Shown here piece by piece: positions 56,533 to 60,312 of a DNA stretch of 60,312 nucleotides. The notes below the pieces were generated by a model that was not told the DNA's origin, did not search any database, and saw nothing but the letters and a program-made list of their open reading frames with translations. The position numbers were made by a program, and so were the translations under genes. Source of the stretch: Desulfurococcaceae archaeon (lineage in GTDB: Archaea > Thermoproteota > Thermoprotei_A > Sulfolobales > Ignisphaeraceae); assembly GCA_020832925.1 (NCBI GenBank), contig JAJHRF010000006.1, positions 1 to 60,312 of the forward strand, read 5' to 3'. How positions within the stretch are numbered: position 1 is the stretch's first letter; every line of letters begins with the position of its first letter.

Positions 56533-57039
56533 AGATTAACCCTGTACCTATACCATACCAAGTATTATGCTTTAGGAAATAATAAATATATGTCACAGTT
56601 TTCAGCATTCTAAATATGGAGGGTTAGGGTCTAGTGGATGATTTTAATCGTCTGTAGATAACTCTGATTATTTTCTTCTCTTTCTCTCTTAGACTCCACT
56701 CTTCACTGGGGGTTCTCGGGGTGATCTAGGTGTTTCTGTATATGATTCTCTTTGTTCTTTTTCTAATGTTAATCTCGCTTTCTCAGAGATCCACATATTG
56801 AGGTTGATGATTTTCCATCGATATCGAGAAAACAGTTTCTCTACAAAACTTAATAAGTAAATAGAGAAGAGATTAGTGAAACTATTTACAGCCAATAAGA
56901 ACTAACTACATCTAATACAAGTTCCACAAAGACTTTGTAATAGGTTGACAATTTCTACCGTATATAAACTGTGTATAGGTTTATAGAACATTTAGTAGTG
57001 TAGAGTTACAACATTGTTAAGGTGTTAAGGGGTACTCAG
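56533..57039. other. Divergent intergenic region
   Basis: About 507 bp between nrdJ and the gene at 57040. It contains TATA-like elements near both ends (AATATATG near 56585 reading towards nrdJ, and GTATATAAAC at 56960-56968 towards 57040), a long pyrimidine tract TTTTCTTCTCTTTCTCTCTT at about 56671-56690, and a possible 35-codon ORF. No repeat or RNA gene that I can support. Confidence 0.5.
56689..56796 (-). CDS. Possible small ORF, 35 aa
   Basis: An open frame encoding MWISEKARLTLEKEQRES followed by YTETPRSPREPPVKSGV: a charged helix then a basic Pro-rich tail, with codons like the neighbouring genes. No ribosome-binding site precedes the ATG and no family is recognised; a longer frame from 56895 exists but its extra part is low in charge and probably not coding. 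Possible small protein or chance. Confidence 0.25.
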   Translation of the reverse strand: MWISEKARLTLEKEQRESYTETPRSPREPPVKSGV

Positions 57040-57924
57040 ATGTCAAGAAGATCGCAAAGCAAAAGAAAATCAACTACATCTGCTAATACTGCTCAGAATA
57101 AGCTTCCCATAGTTCAGCAACAAACAGCATCTACACCTACAACAACACCTTCGTCAGAATCTTCGCAAAAATTTACGGCGCAATCTTCGAAAAGATCTTC
57201 TCAGAGAAAGAGGTATACGGATACAGAAGCCTGGGTTGATAGGAATCTAAGTGAACTTATCGATATATTCAACTTATCTTCATTGGATCTGAACGAGGAA
57301 GAAGCTAAGACTATAGTTACAAAAATTGTCGATATGCTTAGAGGTGAAGCAGCAACTATAGATAAGGATACCATAAGAAGGAGATTCTTAAGAAATATTC
57401 AGCAAGTAAACCAAGTTATAGCTCAGAGCATTGTTGAACTAAGAGATGAATTAACCCTAAATCAGCTCGAGTTCGTAGTGAACAACATAGGTGAAGCTGT
57501 TCTAGGGTACGCTCCTAAGCTGTATAGAGAGGTTGTTAAGCATAGTAGGCAGGATCTCTTAGAAACTCTTAGAACTTTATGGAGAGCTTACTGGGTTCAG
57601 AGAAAATATCAAGTTCTTCCTGTAGAGTGCCCTCGCTGCGGATTCAATTCCCTGATGCCTGATCTAAGCTGTTTAATATGTGGAGCATCGGTTACGGAGG
57701 AAGAGCTCAAAAAGTATGTAGGTTTCGAGAAATTGTTGCAAGAGCTTGTTAACCAGTATTCCGTGGAAGATGTGAAGAAGGCTATAATGTATGGATATGT
57801 CTATCTAAGTAGCCTTGGATTAAAACCTCCAACACATGAAAGAGACAAACTCGATGTAGAGATCTTGTTAAACAGTAGAGAGAAGGAGTACCTTAAATCG
57901 TTACTAGCATCCAAAGGTGTATAG
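57040..57924 (+). CDS. Hypothetical protein with Ser/Thr/Gln-rich N terminus and zinc ribbon
   Basis: 294 residues, family not recognised. Residues about 1-60 are a basic, low-complexity Ser/Thr/Gln tract (RRSQSKRKSTTSANTAQNK, ..TTTPSSESSQ), then a helical domain (about 70-190, DTEAWVDRNLSELIDIFNLSS...), and a zinc ribbon CPRCGFNSLMPDLSCLICG (about residues 197-215) with a helical tail. I start at ATG 57040 because the ribosome site AGGGGT lies 7 bases before it; a GTG at 57022 would include it. First of a three-gene operon with 2-6 bp spacing. Function not inferable; RNA or DNA binding is plausible. Confidence 0.75.
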   Translation: MSRRSQSKRKSTTSANTAQNKLPIVQQQTASTPTTTPSSESSQKFTAQSSKRSSQRKRYTDTEAWVDRNLSELIDIFNLSSLDLNEEEAKTIVTKIVDMLRGEAATIDKDTIRRRFLRNIQQVNQVIAQSIVELRDELTLNQLEFVVNNIGEAVLGYAPKLYREVVKHSRQDLLETLRTLWRAYWVQRKYQVLPVECPRCGFNSLMPDLSCLICGASVTEEELKKYVGFEKLLQELVNQYSVEDVKKAIMYGYVYLSSLGLKPPTHERDKLDVEILLNSREKEYLKSLLASKGV

Positions 57925-57926
57925 AT

Positions 57927-58307
57927 TTGGTTCACGAGTTAGATAAAGCTATTGAAGTAGCTGAACATATCCGTAGAAATAAGTTGGCGGGTATTGTGAT
58001 TACCAATAAGCGGAGGGAAGAGTTGTGGAGCTACGTAGTAGAATTACTTAATAGATTAGAGAGTTCATCGCAGCCTAGGATAAGCTTCGCTTTAGTACAT
58101 TATGAAACATTGCAGGATTCTTTAAAATCTTTTGAAATAGAGATTGCTAGAAAATCTGCGTTGATTAAGCTATATCTAGATGGGAACTGCGTATTTGAAC
58201 AAGAAGGATTACTAGGCTCGAAATTGAATGATGAGATAGCGTTGAAGAGAGGTATACGTGAAAGTCTTAAGCTGTACTCGATAAATATGAAGTTTAAAGC
58301 TGAGTGA
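57927..58307 (+). CDS. Hypothetical protein, 126 aa
   Basis: Not recognised. A helical N-terminal part (ELDKAIEVAEHIRRNKLAGIVITNKRREELWSYVVELLNRLE; two pieces quoted: ELDKAIEVAEHIRRNKLAG, IVITNKRREELWSYVV) and a beta-rich C-terminal part with YLDGNCVFEQEGLLG. Start TTG 57927 is 2 bp after the preceding stop, and its stop is 6 bp before the next start, so it is in the same tight operon as the zinc-ribbon and TtuA-like genes. Confidence 0.72.
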   Translation: MVHELDKAIEVAEHIRRNKLAGIVITNKRREELWSYVVELLNRLESSSQPRISFALVHYETLQDSLKSFEIEIARKSALIKLYLDGNCVFEQEGLLGSKLNDEIALKRGIRESLKLYSINMKFKAE

Positions 58308-58313
58308 TGGGTA

Positions 58314-59171
58314 TTGTTTATATCTGGTGAGGAAGGTAAGAGGTTGTGTACAGCGTGTAGGAAAAGAGACGCTGTTTATAGACGTATAAGTTCTGGTGAA
58401 GTTCTTTGCAAGCTTTGTCTTTTTAGAAGTTTGGTTAAACAAGTTCGTAAAGCTATTCATTACTACAAAATGGTCTCTAGATCGAGTTCAGTGTTATACG
58501 TAATAAGACCTGAAGCTGTTGCAGAATCTGTTATAGGTTTTATCATATATAAAAAAGCTACTAAAGACTTCAACCTGGTGTATAATGTTCTATGTATTGA
58601 TAAGCTAACAAACTGTGATGAGGTTAAACATTACATTGGGCAAAATAACGTTGGATTCATAACTATAGAAAGCAGCTTTAAACCACAGAAATTTGTTGAA
58701 TTAGTGAAATACCTGGATGCGGTAGCGGTAAAGATCTCTAAGAAACTTAAGATAAACTCTGTAGCCGTACCCTTATTCAGAGATGAACTATCATTACTAT
58801 CATTATTAGGTATCTTAACTATTTCAAGAACTATTTTTAGTGAAGGTCTACCTATTAAAAACGTTGACAGCGTCAAGATCGTTAGACCGTTCTTTTACGT
58901 TATATCTACAGATGTAGCTATGTTGAAAGTTCTAGAAGGTGTAGATATAGATTCCCAATTTCTGATGGAATGTGATAGCTTTACGCAGAAAGCGAAGAAG
59001 ATACTTTTTAATTCAGTAGAACTAATGTATTCGAACGTAAAAACTGTTGAGCTAATGCAGTCTTATATCTTCGGTATATCAACTCGATGTAAATACTGCG
59101 GAGCTTTTAGTTTAAATGAGGTTTGTGAAATATGTTCTAGGCTAAGTCAATACATTGACGAGGTAAACTAA
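58314..59171 (+). CDS. TtuA/Ncs6-like protein lacking the PP-loop (Ctu2-like)
   Basis: 285 residues with the layout of the tRNA-thiolation enzymes TtuA/Ncs6/Ctu1 but without the ATP-binding motif. The N-terminal zinc finger CTACRKRDAVYRRISSGEV plus LCKLC (about residues 12-36), followed by VRKAIHYYKMV, matches the TtuA start; the next strand, which in TtuA reads VAVSGGKDS, is here VLYVIRPEAVAES. The C-terminal zinc finger RCKYCGAFSLNEVCEIC (about 264-280) is also TtuA-like. This resembles eukaryotic Ncs2/Ctu2, the PP-loop-less partner of Ncs6/Ctu1. Hence probably a non-catalytic tRNA-thiolation subunit. Start is TTG 58314. Last gene of a three-gene operon; upstream of the thermosome gene. Confidence 0.75.
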   Translation: MFISGEEGKRLCTACRKRDAVYRRISSGEVLCKLCLFRSLVKQVRKAIHYYKMVSRSSSVLYVIRPEAVAESVIGFIIYKKATKDFNLVYNVLCIDKLTNCDEVKHYIGQNNVGFITIESSFKPQKFVELVKYLDAVAVKISKKLKINSVAVPLFRDELSLLSLLGILTISRTIFSEGLPIKNVDSVKIVRPFFYVISTDVAMLKVLEGVDIDSQFLMECDSFTQKAKKILFNSVELMYSNVKTVELMQSYIFGISTRCKYCGAFSLNEVCEICSRLSQYIDEVN

Positions 59172-59236: not shown

Positions 59237-60312
59237 ATGGCGATGTATGGAATACCTGTACTGATACTAAAGGAAGGGACTAGCAGAACTCATGGAAAAG
59301 AAGCGCTGAAAGCTAACATAATGGCTGCTAGAATTTTAGCTGAAATACTTAGAACAAGCCTTGGACCACGTGGACTAGATAAAATGCTTGTTGATAGTTT
59401 CGGCGATATAACTGTTACTAATGATGGTGCAACCATAGTTAAAGAGATGGAGATACAGCATCCATCAGCTAAACTGCTAGTTGAAGCTGCTAAAGCTGTT
59501 GACGCAGAGGTTGGTGATGGAACAACATCAGCTGTGGTGATAGCAGGGGCGTTGCTTGAAAAAGCCGAAAGACTTCTTGATCAAGGTATACACTCAACTA
59601 TAATCATAGAAGGATATAAGAAAGCTTTAAACAAAGCTCTTGAAATACTTGATGAGATTGCTATAAAGATCCCGATAGGCGATATAGAGAAACCTGAGGA
59701 AAGGGAGAAAGCTAAAGAAAAGTTAAAGAAGGTTCTCTATGCAGCGCTTGCGAGCAAGTATGTAGCTACCTCAGACGTCTTAGATAGGATCATGGATATG
59801 GTGATAGAGGCTGCTTTTACAGCAGCTGAGAAGAGACCTGATGGAACATACGATGTTAAGCTGGATATGATAAAGATTGAGAAGAAGAGAGGTGGAAGCT
59901 TAGCTGATAGCATGATTGTTCACGGTGTGGTACTCGATAAAGAGGTTGTACACCCGGCAATGCCTAGAAGAGTTGAGAATGCTAAGATAGCTTTAATCGA
60001 TGCACCTCTAGAAATCGAGAAACCAGATATAACTGCAAAGATAAACATTACATCGCCTGAGCAGATAAGAGCTTTCTTAGAGGAAGAGGCTAGGATCTTA
60101 AGAGATTATGTTGAGAAGATTGCTAGTGTAGGTGTTAATGTTGTTATATGTCAGAAAGGTATTGATGATGTTGCTCAGCACTACCTAGCTAAGAAAGGTA
60201 TAATGGCTGTTAGAAGAGTTAAGAGAAGCGATATGGAGAAACTTGAGAAAGCTACTGGAGGTAGGATTGTGACAAGTATCAGAGACCTATCGGAGAAAGA
60301 CTTAGGAGAATG
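59237..60312 (+). CDS. Thermosome subunit (3' truncated)
   Basis: Group II chaperonin subunit forming a double ring in the cytoplasm. Starts [46 protein letters not shown] and [20 protein letters not shown], the ATP-binding GDGTT motif (about residues 94-98). The apical domain begins [20 protein letters not shown]. About 358 residues are visible; the frame is still open at the window end and about 190 residues are missing. Which paralogue (alpha, beta, gamma) it is cannot be decided. Confidence 0.96.

Follow-up and report, generated by a model that had tools for sequence, protein, structure and literature searches.

The window analyzed here is a stretch of 60,312 nucleotides. Its gene Q (58314..59171, + strand) encodes a protein of 285 aa from a TTG start, identified as a catalytically dead NcsA-like protein from its open reading frame, from a comparison of an ortholog profile with NcsA in the PDB, and from an AlphaFold2 model searched with Foldseek. 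Two genes lie upstream on the same strand. Gene A (57022..57924, +) encodes an order-wide zinc-ribbon protein of 300 aa, or 294 aa when read from 57040, and ends 2 bp upstream of gene B (57927..58307, +), whose 126-aa product has a thioredoxin fold without CxxC and which is separated from Q by 6 bp. Downstream of Q, its conserved neighbour is a thermosome subunit gene (59237..60310, +), recognized by open reading frame and synteny and cut by the window end.

The sequence of Q alone gave only sub-threshold matches in HMM scans, all to the N-terminal finger (TtuA_LIM_N, E=0.088; NcsA, E=0.017). Such single-sequence scans are too weak for classifying Q, so orthologs were drawn from related genomes into alignments A1 and A3 and a profile was used. 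The 20-ortholog profile (A3) matched NcsA of Methanococcus maripaludis (6scy) with E=3.7e-14 over positions 8-278 of 282 and TtuA PH0300 at 3e-12, both in full-length matches, and also matched Thermus TtuA. The AlphaFold model of Q had a pLDDT of 89.2 and a pTM of 0.88; its best solved structure in Foldseek was NcsA (E=2.7e-12, TM 0.70), with TtuA also among the closest. Since both the ortholog profile and the model led to NcsA and TtuA, Q is, on the evidence of sequence and predicted structure, a member of the TtuA/NcsA (TtcA-TtuA) PP-loop superfamily by descent and fold, which bears out the family placement proposed in a first-pass annotation of this DNA. Local hhalign comparisons were not counted as evidence: Q against NcsA gave E=4e-35 over 275 columns, but TtuA scored about as well against Q, and unrelated controls, over 25-33 columns, still reached about 1e-21. 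Matches of the C-terminal finger to RecR and Nop10 were set aside as zinc-ribbon matches of about 20 residues.

Residues were counted after 49 Q, 34 NcsA, 30 TtuA and 8 third-clade proteins had been aligned together. As the first-pass annotation had read from the sequence, both zinc fingers of the family are in place. The N-terminal Cys4 finger (58347..58418, +; C12, C15, C32, C35) is kept in 98-100% of the 49 Q proteins and the C-terminal one (59088..59135, +; C259, C262, C271, C274) in 84-90%, so that each of the eight zinc cysteines, invariant across 20 orthologs, is kept in 84-100% of the 49; several members from family f2 are without the C-terminal finger. The same annotation had noticed RPEAVAES in place of the SGGKDS ATP motif, and the alignments indeed put R65-PEAVAE-S72 (58506..58529, +) at the PP-loop position. 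Intact SGGKDS was found in 0/49 Q and in every sampled canonical NcsA. The pseudo-enzyme idea of that annotation is correct; two further losses had been missed there, those of the Fe-S CxxC and of the catalytic histidine. The NcsA residues G63, D65, C150, C153 and H177 are each present in 0/49 Q; C150 and C153 are the first two [4Fe-4S] cysteines of NcsA, and at the position of the NcsA GHNLDDE motif Q has R156-D157-E158 (58779..58787, +), with the histidine lost. A cysteine at the position of the third Fe-S ligand, C243, occurs in 47% of the 49 Q and is absent from the window protein; where it survives, in about half of Q, it is a probable relic.

The fourth ligand of the N-terminal finger, a point absent from the first-pass annotation, is Cys in 49/49 Q and in all canonical NcsA, whereas every TtuA and third-clade protein sampled has His there, which points to an NcsA-type ancestor of Q. 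Q thus resembles NcsA (6scy)/Ncs6/Ctu1 in fold, element order, both Cys4 zinc fingers and N-finger type, but lacks the PP-loop, the [4Fe-4S] cysteine pair and the histidine of the catalytic region, and is shorter and faster-evolving. TtuA, the U54 thiolase (3vrh/5mko, PH0300; 5b4e, Thermus), shares the fold and the two zinc sites, but in the TtuA sampled here the fourth N-finger ligand is His, and Q also occurs in TtuA-less genomes. As judged by alignment and model, NcsA, the archaeal wobble-uridine thiolase, has in Q a non-catalytic paralog.

Q also has conserved residues of its own. R156 is invariant in 20 orthologs, and E236, within the Q-specific PELMYS-type motif (S234-VELMY-S240 in the window protein; 59013..59033, +), is invariant in 49/49 Q at the position of NcsA G269. 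These residues suggest that Q also has a function of its own. Conserved, charged and Q-specific residues at the positions of the NcsA GHNLDDE and PG motifs could even mean that Q carries out new chemistry, its old active site rebuilt around R156, R191, D200 and E236. However, the nucleotide-binding loop and the Fe-S ligand pair are gone, and conservation of D157 and E158 does not extend across the order; we consider such an enzyme very improbable.

In a tree, Q formed one group with support 100 and long branches, and its evolution is much faster than that of NcsA. The dN/dS over nine pairs ranged from 0.02 to 0.40 and was <=0.20 in seven of them; these mostly low values (0.02-0.2) indicate a working protein under purifying selection and rule out a decaying pseudogene. 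The Q of one genome is broken into two open frames (G060:C1:589153-589904), a possible frameshift or recent decay.

Complete members of the family, which the first-pass annotation had wanted sought in the rest of the genome, were found there: the window genome has one canonical, intact NcsA (G000:C85:50110-51075) on contig C85 and one intact TtuA-type enzyme on contig C22, besides a third, weaker PP-loop match. ThiS/Urm1-like genes are also present, one at a distance of 9 kb from ncsA; ncsA is not adjacent to Q. In another genome, tandem partial ncsA copies lie beside the intact copy (G050:C8:191347-194150).

The distribution of Q was compared over 121 genomes of the order, of which 87 in eight families are Q-positive and 34 in three families Q-negative. 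Q was found in all 87 genomes of families f1, f2, f3, f4, f5, f8, f10 and f11, including 28/28 of f11, the Sulfolobus family, where divergent short forms were located through synteny; in G043 the assignment is a weaker match within a longer frame. Q was absent from all 34 genomes of f6, f7 and f9. We take f11 to be Sulfolobaceae, f7 Pyrodictiaceae, f9 Desulfurococcaceae and f6 Ignicoccus. The canonical-NcsA profile was bimodal over the same genomes: it scored 433-543 bits in 86 of the 87 Q-positive genomes, the exception being G073, a 90% complete draft, and in all 34 Q-negative genomes canonical NcsA was missing, with a best match of <=292 bits. The Q-negative families do carry TtuA-like enzymes despite having no canonical NcsA; in the tree, f6 has a diverged NcsA, and f7 and f9 have another clade of TtuA-like enzyme. 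In nine Q-positive genomes (G007, G008, G020, G024, G028, G030, G034, G040 and G056), a search at E<=1e-30 found no TtuA/NcsA-type enzyme besides NcsA. Because Q tracks canonical NcsA and persists without TtuA, its partner is likely NcsA (U34) rather than TtuA (U54); TtuA was rejected as partner since Q is retained where it is missing.

The association of Q with canonical NcsA gave a family-level Fisher p=0.006, a value that ignores phylogeny. Trees of gene A and the thermosome did not settle whether the three Q-less families, f6, f7 and f9, form one clade, so that no more than one to three independent events may lie behind the co-occurrence. As far as sampled, Q is confined to one order: in 299 genomes sampled from the phylum, no Q-type match was among the matches listed from outside the order, and the matches that were listed there look NcsA-type, being 300-350 aa long, matched in the N-finger part, and with SGGKDS in 7/7 of those fetched. 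A single-protein scan of named genomes for Q gave no matches, and a search with a tight alignment recovered Ignisphaera-type relatives only. In f7 and f9, probably Pyrodictiaceae and Desulfurococcaceae (loci L034-L039, L047 and L053), the intact TtuA-like clade perhaps serves as a replacement in U34 thiolation.

The neighbouring genes were followed through the same genomes. Gene A, with a basic N-terminus and often beside the thermosome, occurs in 117/121 genomes of the order, with or without Q, and is not covered by any family model. The model of gene B (AF2 pLDDT 94.5) had S. solfataricus TrxA2 as its best Foldseek match (E=1.7e-5), and the Pfam Thioredoxin family matches a homologue of it (E=9e-7). 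The order A-B-Q-thermosome holds in the family of the window. In f11, f5, f10, f3 and f2, gene A and Q are on opposite strands, gene B is missing in f11, and one f7 and one f9 genome have A and B in place beside the thermosome with Q missing. As A and B are kept without Q and Q sits on the other strand in f11, Q and its neighbours do not make up a single system, and the operon with two unknown genes, from which the first-pass annotation had argued for a two-component tRNA thiolation system, was dropped both as a functional unit and as evidence.

Most Q-positive families conserve the position of Q between gene A and the thermosome. Such a place, together with the invariant R156 and E236 and the loss of the C-terminal finger in some members, would suit a dead NcsA paralog with no part in thiolation, working by itself or alongside other proteins, for instance as an RNA-binding zinc-finger protein or one associated with the ribosome. 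But a free-standing role gives no reason for Q to go with canonical NcsA, whatever the state of A, B and TtuA, as it does in the 121 genomes, and we regard such a role as unlikely.

The reading we prefer, with a probability of roughly 60%, is that Q would be the non-catalytic subunit of an NcsA heterodimer, the two together thiolating U34 as a two-component enzyme in the manner of the eukaryotic pair Ncs6/Ncs2 (Ctu1/Ctu2). Q probably arose through duplication of an NcsA-type gene with a Cys4 N-finger around the origin of the order; ATP binding and the [4Fe-4S] cluster would then have been lost, while the fold and both zinc fingers stayed. In the NcsA homodimer Q would most likely take the place of one protomer; NcsA would adenylate U34 and transfer sulfur, and Q would supply structural and tRNA-positioning surfaces. 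Loss of Q is predicted to affect s2U34 and not position 54. Sulfolobus acidocaldarius tRNA contains s2Um34 and is thiolated at position 54 too (PMC7668247), which makes this prediction specific.

The same phyletic and structural evidence would be expected if Q paired with NcsA as an inhibitor or regulator of thiolation instead of a required subunit, and a dead protomer could poison the homodimer. However, Q is present in every sampled genome of the Q-positive families and is under purifying selection, and this near-universal retention better fits a required subunit, making an inhibitor improbable. What counts against the heterodimer itself is that Methanococcus NcsA is active alone as a homodimer, according to passages of PMC10067955, so that a partner is not obligatory for the chemistry. 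Also to be weighed against it are the position of Q away from ncsA, its much faster evolution, the C-terminal fingers lost in f2, the small number of events that may underlie the co-occurrence, the exceptional genome G073 and the weaker match in G043, and the invariant residues that Q has for itself.

The comparison with eukaryotes relies on passages of the same source, in which Ctu2 has no cluster cysteines and retains its zinc sites, the NcsA homodimer can be superposed with a model of Ctu1/Ctu2, and Ctu2, as the second protomer, is proposed to orient the tRNA (PMC10067955). Like Ncs2/Ctu2 so described, Q is a dead thiolase paralog beside an intact one. Because Q shares the loss pattern of Ctu2 and follows NcsA, a Ctu2-like arrangement is the best guess. 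The Ctu2-like two-component idea of the first-pass annotation therefore survives in part, favoured by co-occurrence with canonical NcsA and not with TtuA, while a common identity with Ctu2 found no backing: the CTU2 model (PF10288) did not match Q at E<=1 in its own genome or in relatives, and CTU2 was not among the 25 families listed for 20 Q members. That Q is the archaeal ortholog of Ncs2/Ctu2, with a heterodimer older than eukaryotes, would account for the matching loss of PP-loop and Fe-S cysteines and the kept zinc sites (Ctu2 as given in passages of PMC10067955). Against it stand the unmatched CTU2 model, although this covers only 110 positions, and the restriction of Q-type matches to one archaeal order, seen among the matches listed from the 299-genome sample of this one phylum; we find such orthology extremely improbable. 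With its distribution restricted to the order, Q probably originated independently of Ctu2. That NcsA and Q form an obligate heterodimeric U34-tRNA thiolase throughout the order including Sulfolobus, evolved independently of Ncs6/Ncs2, so that the single-homodimer rule would fail for a major lineage, is put forward tentatively, at somewhat less than even odds.

Two unrelated proteins offer precedents only. Pcc2 of archaeal KEOPS is a subunit paralog within a complex and an archaeal case from tRNA modification (PMC9889334), and a dead paralog of trypanosomatid deoxyhypusine synthase forms complexes with its enzyme (PMC3663545). In the passages available from PMC10067955 and PMC12645042, U34 thiolation is carried out by a two-protein complex in eukaryotes versus a stand-alone homodimeric NcsA in archaea. 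No description of Q was found in the portions of the literature on archaeal thiolation that were searched, a scope outside which arCOG annotations and subscription papers fell, and a keyword search of a comparative-genomic survey of archaeal Ubl/PP-loop genes, confined to the text it reached, returned no mention of it (PMC2948915).

If the preferred reading is true, most of a large heat-loving archaeal order would have a two-protein tRNA thiolation machine and not the single enzyme described for archaea, and a homodimeric tRNA thiolase would have become a catalytic/non-catalytic pair for a second time, probably independently of the first. Production of recombinant eukaryotic Ctu1/Ctu2 was not achieved, as stated in passages of PMC10067955; a thermostable archaeal NcsA-Q pair would be a tractable model for the role of the dead subunit. 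With Q in all sampled Sulfolobus-family genomes, including genetically tractable hosts, the question is directly testable. At the loci of this family (e.g. L198:1974-2714), Q and gene A overlap at their 3' ends in antisense, by about 53-74 bases in most genomes read.
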